Assembly: GCA_025353105.1 (NCBI GenBank)
Contig: JANXRG010000039.1
Coordinates: 1-43,144, forward strand
Source of the DNA: Verrucomicrobiota bacterium
GTDB taxonomy: Bacteria > Verrucomicrobiota > Verrucomicrobiia > Chthoniobacterales > SZAS-18
Direction: 5' to 3'
Length of the DNA: 43,144 nt
Of the stretch, positions 5,200-31,479 are shown piece by piece. Both the position numbers and the translations under genes were made by a program. Every line of letters begins with the position of its first letter. Position 1 is the stretch's first letter. A model generated the notes under the pieces. It was not told the DNA's origin and made no database searches. It was given only the letters and a program-made list of their open reading frames with translations.

Positions 5200-5347
5200 T
5201 TAACCACAGATTAACGCAGATTTACGCAGATTATTTTGGGGGATGACACCGGGCGAGCGCCGCAACTGACCCCCGATTCAACCCGGGCACTTTCGACTAT
5301 TTGTCGGGCTCGGTAAACTGCGCAAATCTGCGTTAATCTGCGGTTAA
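5200..5347. repeat. Inverted repeat, ACGCAGATTA-type words
   Basis: Arms at 5200-5233 and 5314-5347 are 34 nt each and match in inverse orientation with about four mismatches. Each contains two to three copies of a 10-bp word ACGCAGATTA introduced by TTAACCACAG. The 80-nt loop has no gene. The unit occupies the gap between the exonuclease gene and hslO (5152-5432), in which I see no other feature. Confidence 0.8.
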
Positions 5348-5432
5348 AATGTAAGCCTTCGACCCTCACCCCAACCGTCTCTGTCACCGCGTTGCATTCG
5401 GTCCGGGAGCGGGCACATTCGGCATCTTTGCC

Positions 5433-6239
5433 ATGTCCGAACCTGCTGCCATCCCACCCGTCGACGGCCTCGAGATCCGCACGTATTTTGTGCGGGGGCG
5501 GAACGCGCTCGTCGCCCGCGCGGATTTCACGGAGCTCTTCGTCGACTATTACCTCCATCAGGGCCAGCACGGCCACCAGCATGATCCCGCGCACGACGGT
5601 TTGCTGAAGGAAGCGCTCGCGGCGCTGGCTCTGCACTGCGCCTCGCGGCCCTGGAACGAGGCCTCGGCCTGGACGATTCATTTTCAGGAACCGCTTTTGA
5701 ATCTGTTTCTTACCGGTGACAACCGTCGCGGGTGGCTCGTCGGCCAGATTTTCACCGAGAACGTGAAACCGGACGGCCAGCCGCGATTTATTTCCGATAT
5801 CGTGCGCGAGGGCGACGAGCCAAGGCGCAGCGTCGTGGATTTCGGTGAGGACGTAACAGATTCCTTCCAGGCGGTGGAACGGTACTACACGAACAGCGAG
5901 CAGCGGCCCGCGCGCTTTTTCCGGCTCGACGGCGATGATTACGTCATGATCGCCGCGCAGCCGGATTGCGACCTCGCCTGGCTTGCGTCGCTCGACGTCC
6001 CTGTCGTGGCGACGCTCGATCAATCCGAGGAGCTCAGGCTGCTCGAACAGCGCCACTACCGATGGCATTGCGGCTGTTCGGAGGAGCGCATGCACCAGAT
6101 GCTGGCGCCGATCATGCGCACGGATCCGGAAAGTCTCTTCGGCGAGGACGCGTTGCTGCGCATGAGCTGCCCGCGCTGCGGCGCGCGCTACGTCGTGACG
6201 CGCGAGGCTCTCGAGGGCTACATCGCATCCGGTGAATAG
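5433..6239 (+). CDS. hslO: Hsp33 redox-regulated chaperone
   Basis: Cytosolic holdase that becomes active when oxidative stress removes zinc from four cysteines. The 268-residue product has the Hsp33 fold, including WTIHFQEPLLNLFLTG and a VEQYY-like linker (VERYYTNSEQRPARFF), and a C-terminal zinc centre of four Cys: C213 and C215 in HCGCS, C246 and C249 in CPRC. The CxC plus CxxC spacing with about 30 residues between is diagnostic. The ATG at 5433 is followed by the normal N-terminal region. tcdA follows 30 nt downstream on the same strand, so the two may be cotranscribed. Confidence 0.95.
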   Translation: MSEPAAIPPVDGLEIRTYFVRGRNALVARADFTELFVDYYLHQGQHGHQHDPAHDGLLKEALAALALHCASRPWNEASAWTIHFQEPLLNLFLTGDNRRGWLVGQIFTENVKPDGQPRFISDIVREGDEPRRSVVDFGEDVTDSFQAVERYYTNSEQRPARFFRLDGDDYVMIAAQPDCDLAWLASLDVPVVATLDQSEELRLLEQRHYRWHCGCSEERMHQMLAPIMRTDPESLFGEDALLRMSCPRCGARYVVTREALEGYIASGE

Positions 6240-6269
6240 CCGGACATAACCGGAAGCCGTCCAATCGCA

Positions 6270-7058
6270 ATGGATGATTACGCGCAGCGATTCGCGGGGC
6301 TCGGCCGGCTCTTCGGGCCCGATGCGCTGGATCGCCTGCGCACGGCGCACGTCGCGGTCGTCGGCGTGGGCGGCGTCGGGTCGTGGGCGGTCGAAGCGCT
6401 CGCCCGCTCCGGTCTCGGCGCGATCACGCTGATTGATCTTGATGACGTCTGCGTGACCAATATCAACCGCCAGCTTCCCGCGCTCAATGACACGATTGGG
6501 CGGCCGAAAGTTGCGGTGCTCGCGGAGCGCATCGCGCTCATCTCTCCGGTTTGCCGAATCCGTGCCGCTGCGGAATTCTTCACCTCGGAATCCGCGCACC
6601 GGCTGCTGGACCCGCGACCCGAGTTCGTGATCGACGCGGTGGATCGGTGTTCGCACAAATGCCTGATCATCGCGTCGTGCCGCGAGCGCGACGTGCCGGT
6701 ATTGACGGTCGGCGCAGCGGGCGGGCGGCGGGATCCGACGGCGGTGCGCACAGGCGATTTGGCGGGCTCGGTGAATGACGAACTGCTGCGCGAGGTGCGG
6801 CGGAAACTGCGACGCAACCACGGATTTCCGCGCGGGGCGCACGTCCAATTCGGCGTGCCGTGCGTGTACTCGGCCGAGAAGCCGCTCTTCCCGTGGAGCG
6901 ACGGGAGAATGTGCGTCGAGCCGGAGCCAGGAACTTCGCTGCGGCTCGACTGCTCGACGGGATTCGGCACGGCTTCCTTTGCGACGGGTGCGTTCGGATT
7001 CGCGGCCGCCGCCGAGGTCGTGCGGCGGATCGCGTTGAATGAGCGAAGGGTGAAATGA
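6270..7058 (+). CDS. tcdA: tRNA threonylcarbamoyladenosine dehydratase (TcdA/CsdL)
   Basis: E1-like ATP-dependent enzyme that cyclises t6A37 of ANN-decoding tRNAs to ct6A. The 262-residue product opens with YAQRFAGLGRLFG, as in TcdA, then has the nucleotide-binding VGVGGVGS (residues 31-38), the NINRQLPAL segment (Arg for ATP), and VIDAVD. It lacks the zinc CxxC pairs and the C-terminal adenylation tail of ThiF/MoeB, which separates it from the thiamine ThiF even though thiS and thiH lie just downstream on the other strand. Length and N-terminus fit TcdA. It lies 30 nt after hslO on the same strand. Confidence 0.9.
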   Translation: MDDYAQRFAGLGRLFGPDALDRLRTAHVAVVGVGGVGSWAVEALARSGLGAITLIDLDDVCVTNINRQLPALNDTIGRPKVAVLAERIALISPVCRIRAAAEFFTSESAHRLLDPRPEFVIDAVDRCSHKCLIIASCRERDVPVLTVGAAGGRRDPTAVRTGDLAGSVNDELLREVRRKLRRNHGFPRGAHVQFGVPCVYSAEKPLFPWSDGRMCVEPEPGTSLRLDCSTGFGTASFATGAFGFAAAAEVVRRIALNERRVK

Positions 7059-7068
7059 ACTGGAAATT

Positions 7069-7262
7069 GGAACCACGAATTTCACCCGAATCAGGGCACG
7101 AGTTTTTTGGGTGAGGTGGAACGCGATCTCCGAGCGCGTTGGCAAAAGTAAATGCATCCCGCACCCGCGGGATGCCTGGCCCTCTCATCGTGCCCGGAGG
7201 TCACGATCCACCTAGTCCAGCTCGAAAAGGATGTCCGGTCCCCCTCTTCCTCGGTGTCCTCT
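7069..7262. repeat. Solo repeat arms between tcdA and tatD
   Basis: This convergent gap (7059-7283) holds a single arm GGAACCACGAATTTCACCCG (from 7068), of the same word family as the inverted repeat at 34698-34803. It also holds a second type at about 7235-7262 whose minus strand reads CCACAGAGGCTCAGAGGACA. Neither has its inverted partner nearby. A hairpin lies between them at 7154-7175. Confidence 0.55.
7144..7175 (-). terminator. Likely intrinsic terminator of the thiH-thiS-tatD unit
   Basis: Perfect 9-bp stem GCATCCCGC / GCGGGATGC (7154-7162 and 7167-7175) with a 4-nt loop. On the minus strand the stem is followed by ATTTACTTTT. This fits rho-independent termination of tatD transcripts. 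It lies about 110 nt past the tatD stop, with a repeat arm in between. Confidence 0.5.
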
Positions 7263-8301: not shown

Positions 8302-8324
8302 GGCGGCGGTTGACGTGAGTGGCT

Positions 8325-9449
8325 TCAAAGACCGACATCCCAATCCTTCCACACGGGTTCAAGTCCGTGGCGATCGCGCAGAACCGCCGAGATTTCCCCC
8401 GGCGATCGGTGGTCGGCGATCTCAAACTGGCTCGTCGCCAGCGCGTGCGCGCGATCGGGGAGTTCGACCTCCTGGCGCCGGCCGCGAACGGTGAGGTGCA
8501 GGTCGCCCCGGCCCTGGCCGGTGTAACCGCCAGGCTCCGTGTGGCTCCCCGCGCTCATCATCGTGAAGCCCAGCGGCAGAATCGCGTCCCGCAACGCCGC
8601 CGGCTCCCGCGTGCTGAGCACGAGTCCGACTTGCGGAAACGTCAGGCGCATCGCGCAGATCAACTGCACGAAATCGCGATCCGACAGCCATTCGCGCGGT
8701 TGAAATTCACCCGCGGCGGGACGCAGCCGCGGCAGCGCGACTGTCAGGTGCGAACGCCAGCAGACCCGCAGGATATGCTCGAGATGAGCCGCGAGCGCCC
8801 TCGCCTCAAAGCGCCAGTCGTGGAGACCGAAGAGTGCCCCAATGCCGATCCGCCGGAAGCCGGCCGCGTGCGCGCGCTCGGCGCAGTCGAGCCGCCAGTC
8901 GAAATCGCGTTTCGGGCCCGCCGTGTGCAGCTCCGCGTACGTCGGGCGGTGATACGTCTCCTGGTACACGACGAGGCCCTCCGCCCCGGCGGCCACGAGC
9001 GGCCGGTAGTCGGCGGTTTCCATCGGACCGAGCTCGAGCGAAATCGCGGGGATACCAACATCATCGCGGAGTCGGCGGATGCAAAGCTCGAGGTAATCGC
9101 CGGCGACGAATTTTGGATGCTCGCCCGCGACGAGCAGAATGTTCCGGAAGCCCTCGGCTGCGAGGTGGCGCTCCTCGGCGATCACCTGCTCTACATCGAG
9201 CGTGACGCGAAGGATCGGATTGTCCCGCGAAAAGCCGCAGTACTTGCAGTTGTTAATGCACTCGTTGGAGAGATACAGCGGCGCGAAGAGCCGCATGGCG
9301 CGGCCAAAATGTTTCATCGTCAGGGCGCGCGCCCGCGCCGCCCGCGCCTCCAGCTCCGCGTCACTGCACGGGTCGAGCAACTGCCCAAACGCGCGCAGGG
9401 ACGGGCCCGGCGCGGCGATGGCGCGATCGATGAGCTGGGAAAATGCCAT
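8325..9449 (-). CDS. thiH: 2-iminoacetate synthase ThiH (radical SAM)
   Basis: Radical SAM tyrosine lyase that makes dehydroglycine for thiazole formation in anaerobic-type thiamine synthesis. The 374-residue product has the cluster motif CINNCKYC (C64, C68, C71) and continues with GFSRDNPI. The conserved YQETYHRPTY and GLHDWRFEA segments, and MMSAGSHTEPGGY near the C-terminus, fit ThiH. The ATG at 9449 gives the expected N-terminus. thiS follows after 23 nt. Using ThiH rather than the oxygen-dependent glycine oxidase ThiO is seen in many Gram-negative bacteria. No TPP riboswitch motif is visible upstream (9450-9601). Confidence 0.94.
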   Translation of the reverse strand: MAFSQLIDRAIAAPGPSLRAFGQLLDPCSDAELEARAARARALTMKHFGRAMRLFAPLYLSNECINNCKYCGFSRDNPILRVTLDVEQVIAEERHLAAEGFRNILLVAGEHPKFVAGDYLELCIRRLRDDVGIPAISLELGPMETADYRPLVAAGAEGLVVYQETYHRPTYAELHTAGPKRDFDWRLDCAERAHAAGFRRIGIGALFGLHDWRFEARALAAHLEHILRVCWRSHLTVALPRLRPAAGEFQPREWLSDRDFVQLICAMRLTFPQVGLVLSTREPAALRDAILPLGFTMMSAGSHTEPGGYTGQGRGDLHLTVRGRRQEVELPDRAHALATSQFEIADHRSPGEISAVLRDRHGLEPVWKDWDVGL

Positions 9450-9601
9450 GGCGACGGTTGACCGGAGCAAGCCTATCACTTAGACGGTGGCGGCGCACGT
9501 TGCCATCCGGCCAGGGGTTGACCGGGCGGGGTTTCGGGCGCCCATTTCCCGCTTCCACCTTTTTCATCGCACGCCACATCCGTTGGACCGTCTCATCTCG
9601 T

Positions 9602-18834: not shown

Positions 18835-19854
18835 ATGGATGCCAATCTGACCAGCGAAGAGCGCGCGCAGATTTTGCAGACGATCGAGATGTTTGAGGTG
18901 ATTGCCCAGACACAGCCCGATGACTGCCAGTCGCTCGATATTTTGAAAGAAGCCTACGTGAAAATTGGCCAGCAGGACGACGCGCTCCGAGTGGCGCGCC
19001 GCCTCGCGGACGCGTATTTGACAAACGGTCTGTATTCCAGCGCCCTGCTCGAATGCGAGCAAATCCTGTCGAAACAGCCGGACGCGCCCGACGTCGTGGC
19101 GTTGATGGGGGAAATTGAAAGCCGTTCGGGCGGATCGTCGACCGCACCGGCCACGCCGACCGCGGCCGCCTCGAAGTCCAACGGGACCGAGGCAAAGGAA
19201 AACGGGGCCGAAAGCGGCCTCACCGCACCGCGGGATACGGGCGGGCTGACTGAAGCCACGCCCAGGGGCACGGGCGGCCTGACCGCACCCATGCCCAAGG
19301 AAAACCAATCGACCGCACTGACCAAGACCCGGCGGGTGCCGGGCCAAGAGACCGGCCTGCCCTCCATTGTCCTGCCCGAGGAAGACGGGAGCGAGCAATT
19401 TGCGCGGTACCTGGTGCATCACCGCATCGTGGCGGACAAGGTGGCGATCACGGCGCTTACGAACATGCGCGCGATCAACAAGAAGATCATCCCAGGCTCC
19501 CAGCCGGCCGCGTCGCTGCTCGAGCAGGTAACCAAGGCGGGCGGTCCGAAGGTCGATGAAATCCTCAGTGCGTTGATCGATGCCACCAAGCTCGGCTACG
19601 TCTCGCTCGAACATTACGACATCGACCGCTCGGTCGTGCGCATGCTGCCGGAGACCCTGACGATGGGCCGGTTGGTGATCCCCTTCGATATTGTCAGCCG
19701 GACCCTGATGGTCGCCTTTTGCAATCCCTTTGACTCCGCCGCGAAGGAAGCGACGCACACGTCGCTCGACTATCACATCCAGTGGTATCTCGCGAAGCCG
19801 CTCGCGATGATGCGGGTCCTGAAGGACGTGTACCGGCTCGACGCGCGCGACTGA
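18835..19854 (+). CDS. TPR protein with MshEN/GspE-N-like domain
   Basis: The 339-residue protein has an N-terminal helical TPR-like region (residues 10-95: LDILKEAYVKIGQQDDALRV, then LYSSALLECEQILSKQPDAPDVVALMGEIE). A disordered Thr/Gly/Pro linker follows (about 98-180) with near repeats of GGLT. The C-terminal domain (about 185-335) resembles the N-terminal domain of type II/IV secretion ATPases: LLEQVTKAGGPKVDEILSAL, then RLVIPFDIVSRTLMVAFCNP. There is no ATPase core. It starts the run that includes pilB 26 nt later. MshEN domains bind cyclic di-GMP in some ATPases, so an adaptor or sensor for PilB is a reasonable inference. Unknown function otherwise. Confidence 0.75.
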   Translation: MDANLTSEERAQILQTIEMFEVIAQTQPDDCQSLDILKEAYVKIGQQDDALRVARRLADAYLTNGLYSSALLECEQILSKQPDAPDVVALMGEIESRSGGSSTAPATPTAAASKSNGTEAKENGAESGLTAPRDTGGLTEATPRGTGGLTAPMPKENQSTALTKTRRVPGQETGLPSIVLPEEDGSEQFARYLVHHRIVADKVAITALTNMRAINKKIIPGSQPAASLLEQVTKAGGPKVDEILSALIDATKLGYVSLEHYDIDRSVVRMLPETLTMGRLVIPFDIVSRTLMVAFCNPFDSAAKEATHTSLDYHIQWYLAKPLAMMRVLKDVYRLDARD

Positions 19855-19880
19855 CTTCCGCGACATTCTACGTTGTAAAT

Positions 19881-21602
<1,722 letters not shown>

Positions 21603-21643: not shown

Positions 21644-24622
21644 ATGGCATTTTCCTTTAGCAATCTCTTCCGTTCCAAATCGAAATCCCCCGCCAAGGAG
21701 GAATCGACGGAAACGCCGCCCCCGATGCCGAAACCGGAACTTCCGAGCAGTGCACAGGAGTTCCGTTCCCCGAGGATCGCGGTTCCGAACAGCGTTCGAC
21801 CGGTCAGCCTGCGCACGTCGCCCGGCGTCGCGCCGGCAGCCTCGTTCCCGCCGGCGGCGCAGTCCCGCACGATTTCCTTCGCGCCCAGCGGCGCCGGACC
21901 GCAGGCCGCGGAACCCTTCATGACGGAGCCCACCCCGCCGGTCGCCCCCGCCCCCGCCGAGGTGCCGGTGGCGCCCGACGTGAGCATCACGCTCGAACTC
22001 GGTGATTTTGTCGATCGCATCCCGCCGAGCTTTCTCCGCCCCGGACCGGTGAACCGCAAGCAGCCCGTCGTCTTTCACGCCTCGGACCTGTATTCGGACC
22101 TCTCCAAAGGCCGGGCCTCCGTCCCGCTCTCCGTCATCCACGGCGTGTGTCAGGAAATTTTCGCAAAGCCCGTGAGTTCGACCGAGGACGTTGAAGTCCT
22201 GCTCCCGCTGCAAAAGCTCGTCGAACAAATGTCCGGCTCGCTGAAGCAACGCGGCGATCAGATCATGGACGAGGATGTCGGCCAGATCGACACCCCGTTC
22301 CTCCAAGTCGCGCTCGAGGACAAGGCGCGCCTGCCGCAGGGCGCTCCGAGCGGCCCGACGTTCCAGCCGCCATCCGCGACCGCGGCACCGACGTTCACCA
22401 AGCCGCCCACCGGGCCGATCCCGGTGGCGGCCCCATCATTTGGATCCATCCGCCCGCCGTCGGGCCCGGTCGGCCTGTTGGCCGCAGCCGAGGCGCCGCC
22501 CGCACCCGCCGCGCCGCTTCCCAGCGCGCCGCCGCCGATCATGGGTGACGCCGCGCCGGCCGGAAAACGTTTGCCCTCGACCGTCCGAGCCTCTGTCTCC
22601 GGTGGAAAAATTCGACTGAGCGGCCCGTCCCTCCCGCCCCAGCGTCCGGCGGTGGTCCCGGCCGGATTCGGCACGGCACCCATACCGGCGCGCCCCATCG
22701 TTCCGGTGCAGCCGGCGGTCTCGGCACTGACTTCCAAAAAGACGGCCCGCATCCAACTGCCGCCCATCGCGCTGCGTTCGACCGCGAGTCCGGCGTTCGG
22801 CGCACCCCCGATTTACAAGCCGGGCGCCGCGCCCGCCGCGACACCACCAACGGCCCGGGCCCCAATTGGAGCGCCGCCTTCCGCGTTCCGCACCCCGACG
22901 ATTCCAAGCGCCGCGCCGCCGCCTCCGAGCGCCATTCCTCTACCGGTCGTCCCGGCCCCGATCGGCCCGACGCCTGCGCCGAGATCTGCCTCGGGACCGA
23001 TTCCGATCGCGCCGCCGACGGGGCCCACGGCCCTGTCGCTCGCCGGAGAAGCGGAGAAGGTGCCGCCGATTTCCCATGGCACGGGCTCGGTGCCCCCGCC
23101 GATTCGCACCACGATTGTTCAACAGCCGGCGGCTCCGACCGTCGATCCTTCGTCCCCTTCGACGTCCCGCGTACCGCTTTCGCGCAGGACCGAGTCGGCC
23201 CCAATTGTGGCCGCAGTCGCCCCGTTGCCGCCGCCGCCCGCGCTCGCGAAACCAGGGTCTTCCAGCTCCGGATCTGGAACCGGCATGGTGCCGATCAAGT
23301 CGGTTCCCGGAGTCAGCGGGGCCACGCAGATTCAGCTCAGCCTCGCCGCGATTCTTCGCGCGCTGCCGGCGACCGCTTTGGGCGAGGGCATGACCTTGGT
23401 GGACGATTCCGTCCGTATCACGCTGCCGTTTACACTCATCGAGCCGCAATTGGCCCAGGGCCGCGTCAGCGTTCCGCGGGACCAGTTCGTGGCCGTTTTG
23501 CCCGCGGACTTCCGCGAGCGCTTCGAGTCGAATTGCGAGCTCACGACCATTCCCATTCCGCTTCAGGAGATCTTCCAGAATCTGCCGATGAACGCACTCG
23601 CCATGCGCGAGGACCAAATCGTCCCGGAAAAAGGCCCGGAAATCCCGACCCCGTTTGGCCAGAAGGCGGCCGAGGACGCCCAGCGCCTGCAGAGCGAGCC
23701 TGTCGCCGAAGCCGATGCGGAAGCGATCGCGCCAGAGGAGCCCGTCGCGCCGACGCCGGTGGACCCGGGGGTCGAGCACATTCCGATCGTCGGCCCCGAG
23801 GCCACCGGCTTGACGCCGATCGCGGCCACGGCCGCTCCGACGCCGGCGATTCCCACCGCGCCCCTCCCCGCGCCCCCGAAACTTGCCCCGCTGCCCAACC
23901 TCGAAAGGCCCGTCTCACCGCCACCGCTGCCGCCCATGGTCGCGCCCATCCCGGTCATTCCGGTCATTCCGGTTCCGGTGGTGCCAATTTCCCGCGTGGT
24001 CGAGTCGGTGACACCGGCCAACCCCGAAGTCGAAGCGCCGGTGCGCACCACGACGCGCATCGTGTTGGGTGCCTCGTCGGCGCCAGTGACCGTGCAGCCG
24101 CATCTGAAGCCTGCCCTCCTGCACGATCCGATTGACGAGAAGGCCAAGCCGGAAACGACGTCGGTCCCGCTTGAACCGGCGGGCGAAGAGGATCCGTCGG
24201 AGCGCCAGCCGACGGGCATGGCCGAGCTGCAGTCGCTCTTCATGACGGACGAGACGCTCGACGCAAAGAAGGTGGTCCGGCTGGTCAGCAAGCTGCCCGG
24301 CATCACCGCGTGCACGATCATGTTCAGCGACGGTCTGACGCTCGCGGGGAATTTCCCCAAGGAGTTGGACGGCGAAGGCTTCAGCGCGATGAGCCCGCAG
24401 TTTTACCGGCGGGCCGTGGCGTTCACGACCGAATTGAGTCTTGGCCAAATGCAGACCTACAGCATCTACACCGACCGTTCCGTGCTCAGTTTCTTCATGC
24501 AGGAGGACATCTGCCTCAGCGTGATGCAGACCGGACGCGGCTTCCTGCCCGGCGTCCGCGAAAAGCTGATGTCCGTCACCACCGAACTTTCGAGGATGTA
24601 CGCCCGTGCCGGTGCGCACTGA
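21644..24622 (+). CDS. 992-residue Pro/Ala-rich protein with duplicated module and C-terminal roadblock-like domain
   Basis: Unknown function. Layout: a low-complexity N-terminus (1-110); module A (about 115-230); a ~330-residue Pro/Ala/Ser linker; module B (about 560-682); a second Pro-rich linker; and a C-terminal domain (about 857-992) with the roadblock/LC7 pattern VRLVSKLPGITACTIMFSDG. Modules A and B align: LELGDFVDRIPPSFL with LSLAAILRALPATAL, LSKGRASVP with LAQGRVSVP, LLPLQKLVEQM with PIPLQEIFQNL, and IDTPFLQVALEDKARL with IPTPFGQKAAEDAQRL. No signal peptide or membrane segment is seen, so it is probably cytoplasmic. It lies between pilB (41 nt) and the MglA-type GTPase (50 nt), suggesting a scaffold that links the GTPase to the pilus motor. 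Confidence 0.8.
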   Translation: MAFSFSNLFRSKSKSPAKEESTETPPPMPKPELPSSAQEFRSPRIAVPNSVRPVSLRTSPGVAPAASFPPAAQSRTISFAPSGAGPQAAEPFMTEPTPPVAPAPAEVPVAPDVSITLELGDFVDRIPPSFLRPGPVNRKQPVVFHASDLYSDLSKGRASVPLSVIHGVCQEIFAKPVSSTEDVEVLLPLQKLVEQMSGSLKQRGDQIMDEDVGQIDTPFLQVALEDKARLPQGAPSGPTFQPPSATAAPTFTKPPTGPIPVAAPSFGSIRPPSGPVGLLAAAEAPPAPAAPLPSAPPPIMGDAAPAGKRLPSTVRASVSGGKIRLSGPSLPPQRPAVVPAGFGTAPIPARPIVPVQPAVSALTSKKTARIQLPPIALRSTASPAFGAPPIYKPGAAPAATPPTARAPIGAPPSAFRTPTIPSAAPPPPSAIPLPVVPAPIGPTPAPRSASGPIPIAPPTGPTALSLAGEAEKVPPISHGTGSVPPPIRTTIVQQPAAPTVDPSSPSTSRVPLSRRTESAPIVAAVAPLPPPPALAKPGSSSSGSGTGMVPIKSVPGVSGATQIQLSLAAILRALPATALGEGMTLVDDSVRITLPFTLIEPQLAQGRVSVPRDQFVAVLPADFRERFESNCELTTIPIPLQEIFQNLPMNALAMREDQIVPEKGPEIPTPFGQKAAEDAQRLQSEPVAEADAEAIAPEEPVAPTPVDPGVEHIPIVGPEATGLTPIAATAAPTPAIPTAPLPAPPKLAPLPNLERPVSPPPLPPMVAPIPVIPVIPVPVVPISRVVESVTPANPEVEAPVRTTTRIVLGASSAPVTVQPHLKPALLHDPIDEKAKPETTSVPLEPAGEEDPSERQPTGMAELQSLFMTDETLDAKKVVRLVSKLPGITACTIMFSDGLTLAGNFPKELDGEGFSAMSPQFYRRAVAFTTELSLGQMQTYSIYTDRSVLSFFMQEDICLSVMQTGRGFLPGVREKLMSVTTELSRMYARAGAH

Positions 24623-24672: not shown

Positions 24673-25314
24673 ATGTCGATCATCAACTACGCCAGCAAGG
24701 AAATTCAGTTCAAGATCGTGTACTACGGTCCCGCGCTGTGCGGCAAAACCACGAACCTCGCGTACATCCACTCGCGGATTAACCCGGACAACCGGGGTGA
24801 TCTCGTCTCGCTGGCCACGGCCGCGGACCGCACCCTGTTCTTCGATTTCCTGCCGCTGAACGCGGTGGTCATCAAGGGCTTCAAGACGAAGTTCCAGCTC
24901 TATACCGTGCCCGGCCAGGTGATTTACAACGCCACGCGTCAGCTTGTGCTGCGCAGCGTCGACGGCATCGTCTTCGTCGGCGATTCGCAGTGGGAAAAGA
25001 TGGAGGAAAACATCGACAGCTTCAAGAACCTCGAGGAAAACCTCGCGAAACAGAATGTCACGTTGGACGACATGCCGTATGTGTTGCAGTATAACAAAAG
25101 GGATCTGCCGAACATTGCGCCGGTGAACTATCTGGAGTTTTTGTTGAACAACCGCAAGAAGCGCGTGCAGAGCTTTGAGGTCGTTTCCAGCACCGGCCAG
25201 AATGTCTTCGCCGCTCTCAACGCCGTGTCCCAATTGCTCCTCCACAAATTCAGCCGCGACAGCGATCCCGCCCGCCCCGCCACCGCACCCGTCGCCCTGC
25301 CCCGCCGCCGCTGA
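24673..25314 (+). CDS. mglA: MglA-type small Ras-like GTPase
   Basis: Bacterial Ras-like GTPase that sets cell polarity and controls motility machines in Myxococcus and relatives. The 213-residue product reads KIVYYGPALCGKTTNLAYIH with the P-loop at residues 19-27, AADRTLFFDFLPL with Arg53, YTVPGQVIYNATRQL with Gln82, and NKRDLP (141-146). Arg53 and Gln82 match in number the residues needed for GTP hydrolysis in M. xanthus MglA. A basic/Pro-rich tail of about 20 residues is extra. Its start is 50 nt after the roadblock-fusion gene, and a second roadblock gene follows after 70 nt, the classic GTPase/GAP pairing. Confidence 0.93.
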   Translation: MSIINYASKEIQFKIVYYGPALCGKTTNLAYIHSRINPDNRGDLVSLATAADRTLFFDFLPLNAVVIKGFKTKFQLYTVPGQVIYNATRQLVLRSVDGIVFVGDSQWEKMEENIDSFKNLEENLAKQNVTLDDMPYVLQYNKRDLPNIAPVNYLEFLLNNRKKRVQSFEVVSSTGQNVFAALNAVSQLLLHKFSRDSDPARPATAPVALPRRR

Positions 25315-25384: not shown

Positions 25385-25852
25385 ATGGACTCCATTCCCG
25401 CTCTCACGATTGAAGATGTCGCCAACATCGACGGAGTCCTCCAGGACTATCTGCAAAAATCCGAATCGGATCTGGCGGTCATCATCGACAAGGGCGGTAA
25501 CGTCATTTCGCAGTACGGGGACCTCGAGGTGATGGACGTCACGATCATCGCCGCCCTCGCCGCCGGCAGCTTTGCCGCGACCAAGGAACTCGCCCGCCGC
25601 ATCGGTGAAGTGGAGTTCAACGCGCTGTACCACCAGGGCAACGGCAGCCACATCTTCATGAACTCGGTGGATGACGACACGATCATGATCACCGTCTTCG
25701 GCGGCCAGACCACGGTGGGGTTGGTGCGCTTCTATTCCACCAGCGCAGCGAGCGGCCTCGCGAACGTGCTGCGCGGACTACGCGAGAAAACGTCGCCCGG
25801 CTTCCAGTTCTCGCCCAGCGACATTCGCGACGCGCACCTGTTTGAGAACTAG
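25385..25852 (+). CDS. Roadblock/LC7 domain protein (MglB-like)
   Basis: The 155-residue protein has the roadblock/LC7 fold: IDGVLQDYLQKSESDLAVII, DKGGNVISQYGDLEVMDVTI, ALAAGSFAATKELARRIGE, then a beta segment TIMITVFGGQTTVGLVRFYS and a C-terminal helix. Roadblock proteins such as MglB dimerise and act as GTPase-activating proteins or anchors for MglA GTPases. Placement directly after the MglA-type gene supports partnership with it. The gene is named only by fold because MglB orthology needs alignment. Confidence 0.88.
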   Translation: MDSIPALTIEDVANIDGVLQDYLQKSESDLAVIIDKGGNVISQYGDLEVMDVTIIAALAAGSFAATKELARRIGEVEFNALYHQGNGSHIFMNSVDDDTIMITVFGGQTTVGLVRFYSTSAASGLANVLRGLREKTSPGFQFSPSDIRDAHLFEN

Positions 25853-25944: not shown

Positions 25945-26667
25945 ATGCAGGACTTGATGCAAAAAGGCGGGCCGTTGATGTGGCTGTTGTTCCCCATCAG
26001 CGTCCTGGCTGTTGCCGTGTTCATTGAGCGGTTTGTTTACCTGCATCGGAGCACCATCTCGACGCCCGACATCCTGCGTGGCCTCGGAAATTTGATTCGC
26101 GGACATCGCTTCGCCGAGGCCGCGCGCGAGTGCCAGGCCACGCCCGGGCCGGTCGCCCGCGTTCTGCGCGTCGCGATTGCCCATCACGATGCATCGCGCT
26201 CCGAAATGAAGGAGTACATCGAGGAGGCGGCGCAGCTCGAAGTAAAACGCCTCGAGGGTTACCTCCCCATCCTTTCCACGATCGCCCACGTCACGCCGCT
26301 CATCGGACTTTTGGGCACCATCACGGGACTGCTGCAAGCCTTCAGTGCCGTCAATGCGCAAGGTGGCTACGTCAATGCCGCGGATCTTTCGTCCGGTCTC
26401 TACAACGCGCTGCTCACTTCCGCGGGCGGACTCGTCGTCGCCATTCCCGCGTATCTTGCCCATAGTTACCTCTGTTCCCGGGTTAACCTGCTGATCGATG
26501 ACATGGAGCGTGGCGGGACGGAAATCGTCCACCTCGTCCAGGAGGCGCAGTCGACCGCTCTGGTGTCCGACTCGATCATCCCGTTCCAGACCCCGGCCAC
26601 GCGGGCGGCGGCGCCGACCGCGAAACCGGAGCCTGAGGTGGGCAAGCGGACCGACCGGATTCGTTAG
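25945..26667 (+). CDS. exbB: MotA/TolQ/ExbB proton channel family protein
   Basis: Inner-membrane channel subunit that uses the proton gradient to energise TonB- or Tol-like machines. The 240-residue product has an N-terminal membrane segment (about 10-30, PLMWLLFPISVLAVAVFIER), a cytoplasmic helical region, and the conserved pair ILSTIAHVTPLIGLLGTITG and LYNALLTSAGGLVVAIPAY with its third membrane helix. The Pro/Ala-rich C-terminus is dispensable-looking. The ExbD-like gene follows after 11 nt. It lies in the same direction as pilB/mglA, 92 nt after the roadblock gene. Confidence 0.92.
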   Translation: MQDLMQKGGPLMWLLFPISVLAVAVFIERFVYLHRSTISTPDILRGLGNLIRGHRFAEAARECQATPGPVARVLRVAIAHHDASRSEMKEYIEEAAQLEVKRLEGYLPILSTIAHVTPLIGLLGTITGLLQAFSAVNAQGGYVNAADLSSGLYNALLTSAGGLVVAIPAYLAHSYLCSRVNLLIDDMERGGTEIVHLVQEAQSTALVSDSIIPFQTPATRAAAPTAKPEPEVGKRTDRIR

Positions 26668-26678
26668 CGCGGCGGCCC

Positions 26679-27086
26679 ATGAATCTTTCCCGCCTGCAGC
26701 CCGCCAAGCCGGGGTGGATGCTCTTCGCGCCGACGCTGTGCGCACTCGCCTTGTTGTTCTTCTTCTTCTTCTTCGGGCGATCGTTTGTCGTCCAACCCGG
26801 TATCGCGGTCGTGCCGCCGCCTTCGCCCTTCATCGTGGCGCCCGCCGCCGGCGCCGCGGTGGTGACCATTCTCTCGGGTCCCAGTCCGCAGATTTTTTTC
26901 CAGGATCGACCGATGACGTTCGGTGAACTCGATCAAGCGCTGCAAAACACGCCCGACGCCTCGGCCCGCACGCTGATCATTCGCGCGGATCGGGGGACCA
27001 GGTACGACACCGTGCTGGCGGTCGCGAACAAGGCGATCGAGCATCATTTCTCCGTCGTCCTCGCAGGATCGCCGCCGGCGCGTTGA
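26679..27086 (+). CDS. exbD: ExbD-like protein lacking the membrane Asp
   Basis: The 135-residue product has a short cytoplasmic N-terminus, one membrane segment (about 14-33, with a run of six Phe at 27-32), a Pro-rich stretch and a periplasmic ExbD/TolR-like domain (FFQDRPMTFGELDQALQNTP, LIIRADRGTRYDTVLAVANK). Known ExbD and TolR proteins carry an essential Asp at the start of the membrane helix, usually in a PLIDV-type motif; here the segment reads PGWMLFAPTLCALALLFF with no acidic residue. It is paired with the exbB gene (11-nt gap), so the complex is expected, but how it would relay protons is unclear. Confidence 0.82.
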   Translation: MNLSRLQPAKPGWMLFAPTLCALALLFFFFFFGRSFVVQPGIAVVPPPSPFIVAPAAGAAVVTILSGPSPQIFFQDRPMTFGELDQALQNTPDASARTLIIRADRGTRYDTVLAVANKAIEHHFSVVLAGSPPAR

Positions 27087-30423: not shown

Positions 30424-31479
30424 ATGTCGAATTCCCTCCAAATCGAGCCCGACGAGCAGGATTCGCAGGCTCGAAACCGTCGGCATAATCTACGTCTGGC
30501 GATTTCGCTCGCGATCTGCATTCCGCTCTCGACGGCCCTCTTCGTGCTGATTGCCGCGATCGGCTTCCCTTACGCGGGTTGGGACACTTGGAAGGACAAG
30601 CGTGAGGCGTTCGAGAAAAGCAGAAAGCTGCCGACCTACGAGGCATTGGTGCCTGGGGCGATCCCTGATGACCAGAACTTCGTGATGATTCCCGAATTCG
30701 CGCCCTTGCATGCGTTCCTCGCGCTCGGGCCCGAGGCACGCGGTGAGGGCGAACCGGCTCCGATCGTGTTTCCGGAAATTTGGGGGCTGACGGCATCGGG
30801 AAAGAAAGCACTGCTCGATGTCGCGGATCAAAAACGGCAGAATGTTGAGGAACTGCGAGCTGCGCTGGCGGAATCAGGTTGCGCCAGCGCGAACGGTGAA
30901 GCTGCGATTGCCGTCCTCGCTGCGGTCGAGGCCCATAGCAGGGTGTTCAACGCAATCGAAGCCGGCGTAAAGCGCAATTCTTCGCGCTGGCCCGTTCGCT
31001 ACGACTTGGGATTCAGCATGGCACCTCCACCATGGCCATCGCTCCGCCAACTCACCTACCTGTTTGCCATCAGGAGCCTGGCGCGTCGCAGCGCCGGAAT
31101 GCCCCAGGAGGCGGCTGACGATGTTGTAACGCTCCTGCGTCTCGCCCGCGCGCTGCAACGCGATCCGCTTCTGGTATCAACGATGATCGGCGTCGCGATC
31201 GAGCGAGCTGCACTGTCCGAAATCTGGGACGGCATGGCTTCGCATGCTTGGAGTGGGTCGTGTCTCGCACGATTTCGCGGCGAGTTGCTCGACGTCGACG
31301 AATTTGCCTCGTGGCACAGATCAGTGTTGTTTGAAGGAATCGCTATGACTCGCCTGCTTGAGTCGGCCATTCGCGAGGAAAAACCGGTTTGGGGATTGCG
31401 CGACGATGAATCCAACGAAGTACATTGGGCCATTTGCAGATCGGCTGGCGGAGATGACAGGATCCATCACGATCCATGA
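30424..31479 (+). pseudogene. Membrane-anchored protein, 5' part of a frameshifted gene
   Basis: I do not recognise the family. This reading frame gives 351 residues: a charged N-terminus, one membrane helix (about 26-48), then a soluble helical region with RSLARRSAGMPQEAADDVVT and a run WDGMASHAWSGSCLARFRGE. It then passes into an unlike tail (CRSAGGDDRIHHDP) and stops at 31479. The next frame, one base over, continues with sensible protein to 31888. The two overlap by about 120 nt. A single-base insertion (or two-base loss) between about 31375 and 31425, perhaps in the A5 or G4 runs there, would explain it. It may be a real mutation or a sequencing error. Confidence 0.6.

Follow-up and report, generated by a model that had tools for sequence, protein, structure and literature searches.

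The window analysed here, a stretch of 43,144 nucleotides from a Verrucomicrobiota bacterium, contains genes on one strand in the order TPR-MshEN protein, PilB-type ATPase, MOD-RB (our label for a 992-residue protein), MglA, MglB, ExbB and ExbD (Table 1). The gaps between the genes from PilB to ExbD are 41, 50, 70, 92 and 11 bases, so the cluster appears compatible with an operon. For the PilB-type ATPase, whose start codon is uncertain (about 33 codons into the frame there is an ATG), PilB was the best NCBIfam model, scoring 671 bits where the cut-off is 676. The TPR-MshEN gene recurs as the same neighbour in many relatives, and the MglA translation contains the motifs DRTLFFDFL, PGQ and NKRD. 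In the whole genome, a single MglA and only two roadblock domains were detected, all of them within this cluster. The original prediction for this DNA was silent on these neighbours; it is the cluster context that supplies the functional meaning of MOD-RB. Elsewhere in the window, three ORFs of 648, 380 and 351 amino acids (5211-7157 on the minus strand, 8319-9461 and 30424-31479 on the plus strand) gave no Pfam match at E 0.01.

Table 1. Genes of the MOD-RB cluster and parts of the MOD-RB protein, with positions in the window
Feature	Position	Strand	Evidence
TPR + MshEN domain protein	18835..19854	+	MshEN E 1e-9, TPR_14 E 8e-5
PilB-type ATPase with MshEN domain	19782..21602	+	T2SSE E 2e-142, MshEN E 5e-18
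MOD-RB gene (992-aa protein)	21644..24622	+	ORF/translation with ATG start; full-length AlphaFold2 model
Module 1, residues about 111-230	21974..22333	+	Repeat and profile evidence; pLDDT about 88-97 over 111-200
Module 2, residues about 560-685	23321..23698	+	Repeat and profile evidence; also modelled alone
C-terminal roadblock/LC7 domain (predicted), residues about 856-992	24209..24619	+	Orthologue PF03259 matches; fold match to MglB
MglA small GTPase	24673..25314	+	E 3e-67 to M. xanthus MglA
MglB-type roadblock protein	25385..25852	+	E 7e-18 to M. xanthus MglB; Robl_LC7 E 1.7e-10
ExbB/TolQ/MotA-type channel protein	25945..26667	+	MotA_ExbB E 7.5e-27
ExbD/TolR-type protein	26679..27086	+	ExbD E 2.3e-7

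The reading frame of MOD-RB was present as the original prediction had claimed, and its product consists of module 1, a Pro-rich linker, module 2, a second Pro-rich linker and the roadblock domain, in that order. The linkers, which had been described as long and Pro-rich, contain 25% (residues 231-556) and 24% (687-855) proline and are mostly predicted to be disordered, with block pLDDT values of about 35-52 in the AlphaFold2 model of the full protein. Three segments, 111-200, 561-650 and 861-980, were predicted with high confidence in the whole-protein AlphaFold2 model built with 71 homologues (pLDDT about 88-97).

Residues ~115-230 and ~560-682 had been proposed to align with each other, and this was borne out at several levels. 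Module 1 and module 2 gave a Smith-Waterman score of 96 over about 120 residues, whereas 2000 shuffles gave a mean of 29.4 (sd 5.3) and a maximum of 61, none of them reaching 96. The paired motifs that had been quoted were all present: GRASVP at 156 with GRVSVP at 606, LPLQKLVEQM at 187 with IPLQEIFQNL at 638, DQI at 205 and 657 ahead of the ending of each module, and DTPFLQVALEDKARL at 216 with PTPFGQKAAEDAQRL at 668. The first copy used as a phmmer query recovered the second copy of the same protein (i-E 2.7e-5), and a family-level profile-profile comparison of first copies with second copies by hhalign gave Prob 99.5 and E 8.7e-23 over 138 columns. Shuffles and profile comparison together rule out a chance repeat, and the two segments are homologous. 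In a tree of the modules of the window's order, all first copies (33/33) were placed apart from all second copies (32/32), and because of this complete separation we conclude that the duplication took place before the order arose. Comparing the second-copy profile with itself also revealed a half-repeat inside the module, its halves displaced by about 45 residues (E 1.3e-5).

AlphaFold2 predicted the same order of elements for both modules, namely four short strands with a helix right after each (beta-alpha x4), followed by a tail with the DQ and TPF motifs and a final helix. Modelled alone with 121 homologues, module 2 had a mean pLDDT of 82.5, and a search with the module modelled alone found no fold match in the PDB, the best Foldseek E value being 2.7 and none of 36 chains reaching a VIA Z of 2; the missing match is no proof of a new fold. 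Searches with 122 and 46 module sequences gave no consistent match to a named family among Pfam, NCBIfam and PDB sequences, in keeping with the original prediction, which had not recognised the module as any named domain. Near-invariant Pro, Gly and Phe positions occur in the module among homologues, and at least one recognisable module is retained in nearly all complete MOD-RB homologues. In the libraries searched the module corresponds to no named domain family, and it defines one that is absent from Pfam and NCBIfam. A phage or viral origin was considered and rejected: a PHROGs search with 46 module members returned a single weak match, and a viral structure library gave no match under E 1.8.

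The C-terminal ~135 residues had been assigned to the roadblock/LC7 pattern. Residues 861-980 are predicted by AlphaFold2 to follow the roadblock element order (alpha, two strands, alpha, three strands, alpha), and by Foldseek and VIA-align the C-terminus resembles archaeal roadblocks and MglB at Z of about 14-17, with a VIA Z of 16.7 to 9jue and of 14.6, over 120 residues, to MglB 6hjm. The window's roadblock domain alone matched PF03259 (Robl_LC7) at E 0.0037 and 17.4 bits, which is under the Pfam cut-off of 23; among MOD-RB orthologues, 54 of 68 matched the same family at E 0.1 or better, the best at 1.9e-11. On its predicted structure the C-terminus of MOD-RB is a roadblock fold, and the assignment stands, as does every other point that the original prediction had made. 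It differs from MglB in sequence (about 10-17% identity in the fold alignments listed) and in being no separate gene: MglB is a small single-domain protein, whereas MOD-RB has 992 residues and two extra modules, and the true MglB gene adjoins.

Among 289 Verrucomicrobiota genomes, the module profile was positive in 30, MglA was present in 27 and both were present in 26 (Fisher p about 1e-31, a value that counts related genomes, which are not independent). By family, the module was found in 15 of the 16 with MglA. A first count had given 25/27, and a better module profile raised the figure to 26/27; G239, which had appeared to be an MglA genome without the module, was a sensitivity artefact, since the better profile detects its module. 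In the one exception, MglA lies at the edge of its contig, at base 55. The four genomes with the module only all come from one family; the ones inspected encode a small standalone module. A small one-module protein with no roadblock was seen in family f27 (L218:5137-5676, L219:5278-5757, L162, L164), in genomes without MglA. Six genomes, G096, G108, G125, G204, G314 and G064 (family f16), have two Robl_LC7 domains, with no module or MglA match at E 1e-20.

Nearly all of those among 80 MglA loci from genome contigs that had upstream sequence carried MOD-RB there; this set was anchored on MglA, and linkage was therefore also checked starting from the module. Outside the window's order, the two genes are often divergent rather than co-directional but still adjacent, and in family f42 they lie apart in the genome. 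Both linkage to MglA and co-occurrence with it were found for MOD-RB: in these samples, MglA was never seen without MOD-RB where the contig permits judgement, while MOD-RB was seen without MglA. Many of the order's loci have PilB and TPR-MshEN genes upstream; in other families PilB is not an adjacent gene. In several families ExbB is found downstream of MOD-RB, or of MOD-RB plus MglA, whether or not MglB is there too, and an ExbB-like gene of any kind occurs in 28 of the 87 loci with room for one, some on the opposite strand.

MglA is a bacterial Ras-like switch, and MglA/MglB switches are known chiefly from Myxococcus, Thermus and Bdellovibrio. We regard the MOD-RB system as a variant of this known polarity switch. 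In M. xanthus, the N-terminus of RomR is a folded domain, its middle is Pro-rich/disordered and its C-terminal helix binds the roadblock protein MglC (PMC12719032), and a complex of RomR, MglC and MglB sets the rear pole (PMC10329633). MOD-RB is like RomR in having a folded domain at its N-terminus, a long Pro-rich middle that is predicted to be disordered and a C-terminal part that would meet a roadblock of the MglA switch (PMC12719032, PMC10329633), but RomR has a receiver first and a helix last, whereas MOD-RB has the undescribed repeated module first and the roadblock last. Neither a RomR-type receiver nor any other known N-terminal domain was found in MOD-RB, the only Pfam match being the weak one to Robl_LC7. 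MglC offers a further parallel, since it too is a roadblock that an MglA system has in addition to MglB (PMC7949163); however, it is small and single-domain, whereas the MOD-RB roadblock forms the C-terminal part of a far longer chain and its binding to MglB is putative. Receiver-roadblock fusions and the globin-roadblock protein HGbRL of Methylacidiphilum similarly join, in bacteria, a putative sensory or other domain to a C-terminal roadblock (PMC4316618, PMC4476040), but their N-terminal domain is a different one, they are short and have neither Pro-rich tethers nor a duplication, and the HGbRL gene lies outside any MglA operon. The conservons of Streptomyces (CvnA-D) also combine an MglA-type GTPase, an MglB-type roadblock and lineage-specific extras in a conserved operon (PMC4316618), although the extras there are a histidine kinase and CvnC, with no fused roadblock or MOD-RB-type module.

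We propose that MOD-RB is a core scaffold of the polarity/motility switch that Verrucomicrobiota build on MglA, in which its roadblock engages the switch and its modules bind an effector or a positional mark, and we hold this reading at about even confidence. The roadblock of MOD-RB would dimerise or stack with that of MglB and/or contact MglA, and the modules (two here, one to three across the phylum) would act as binding heads on long, Pro-rich, disordered tethers. Candidate targets of the modules are the type IV pilus motor PilB, the TPR-MshEN neighbour and the ExbB/ExbD proton channel. MglA is known to act on pili together with SgmX, a TPR protein (PMC7519303), and, in M. xanthus, to bind a MotA-like gliding motor (PMC9120999); by analogy, the PilB and TPR-MshEN neighbours recall the pairing of MglA with SgmX, and ExbB/ExbD recall the gliding motor. 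MOD-RB may combine in one chain the roles played in M. xanthus by RomR as scaffold and by MglC as adaptor roadblock. The proposal starts from the duplication of the module, the predicted roadblock fold and disorder, the linkage and co-occurrence with MglA, and the retention of MOD-RB where MglB or MglA was not found; all of its binding, its place in the cell and any effect as a GAP or GEF we infer. Because MOD-RB accompanies MglA wherever the sampled genomes allow an assessment, the cell-polarity/motility switch of Verrucomicrobiota probably includes it as a core part that has been overlooked. The scaffold reading is further favoured by the clustering of the genome's only MglA with its only two detected roadblock domains, by a linkage between MOD-RB and MglA that survives a change of orientation, by the recurrence of upstream PilB and TPR-MshEN genes in the order and of downstream ExbB in several families, and by the position of MOD-RB beside MglA even in a family without detected MglB. 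Against it stand the persistence of MOD-RB in f6 and f13 without detectable MglA or MglB, the separated genes of f42, the lack of PilB adjacency in other families and a co-occurrence that counts related genomes.

The family without detected MglB, f4 (G009, G018, G025, G033, G041, G047, G052; L210-L214), also bears on a different reading. Its members have an MglA whose PGQ and DRTLFFDFL motifs are intact, together with three to four MOD-RB paralogues, each mostly a single module plus roadblock; the window MglB used as a query found no MglB in 7/7 genomes, with two f8 controls positive, and a Robl-type profile found only the MOD-RB proteins. Such a set speaks for a reading in which the MOD-RB roadblock would itself regulate the GTPase, as a second GAP or as a RomY-like co-GAP of MglB, with the modules as on/off input domains. 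Roadblock proteins are known MglA GAPs, and fusions of a sensor to a roadblock are known with a response regulator (PMC4316618) and with a globin (HGbRL, PMC4476040). Nevertheless, a separate MglB adjoins MOD-RB in the window and in most relatives, the roadblock aligns weakly with MglB, and a query with a single sequence could miss a divergent MglB in f4, although the profile search gave only MOD-RB there. We regard direct regulation of the GTPase by MOD-RB as unlikely.

Families f6 and f13 (L204-L208) present the reverse case, in which MOD-RB has one degenerate module and no MglA was detected; MglB was likewise not detected in the three genomes tested. ExbB follows MOD-RB directly in 5 of the 6 loci examined, and the MOD-RB-ExbB unit resembles the cluster of the window in reduced form. 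The idea that a divergent GTPase replaces MglA right after MOD-RB in these families was rejected, the next gene being ExbB. Since MOD-RB persists here in the absence of detectable MglA and MglB, part of its job may be independent of the switch. On another reading, MOD-RB might chiefly work with the ExbB/ExbD proton channel, in an AglR-like motor or a TonB-type transporter, with MglA/MglB gained or lost later. The direct MOD-RB-ExbB adjacency in f6 and f13, the order MOD-RB-MglA-ExbB found in f4 and the binding of MglA to a MotA-homologous gliding motor in M. xanthus (PMC9120999) are consistent with this, but a nearby co-directional ExbB is missing from most of the MglA loci in other families (the 28 of 87 include any ExbB-like gene), and ExbB genes are common enough for the adjacency to be incidental; we hold the channel-partner role to be improbable. 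That the modules are spacers or self-association units that bind nothing specific, leaving a standard roadblock as the sole functional part, is highly improbable: one module is missing or degenerate in some lineages, but at least one is kept, with its near-invariant residues, in nearly all complete homologues, its fold is predicted with high confidence, and f27 has it as a small standalone protein.

Returning to MOD-RB as a scaffold, a protein that tracks MglA across the phylum is a candidate for how Verrucomicrobiota wires its switch, and the lineages that naturally lack MglB, in one case, or MglA, in others, provide ready tests of which part does what. It is possible, though we are inclined to doubt it, that MglA switches in Verrucomicrobiota have MOD-RB as their general third component, a protein that has an undescribed module of possibly new fold, merges the roles of RomR and MglC and replaces MglB as GTPase regulator in at least one family. 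The complete MOD-RB genes at MglA loci mostly encode two modules, and homologues with three modules were observed at L104:3058-5361 and L106:3522-5963.
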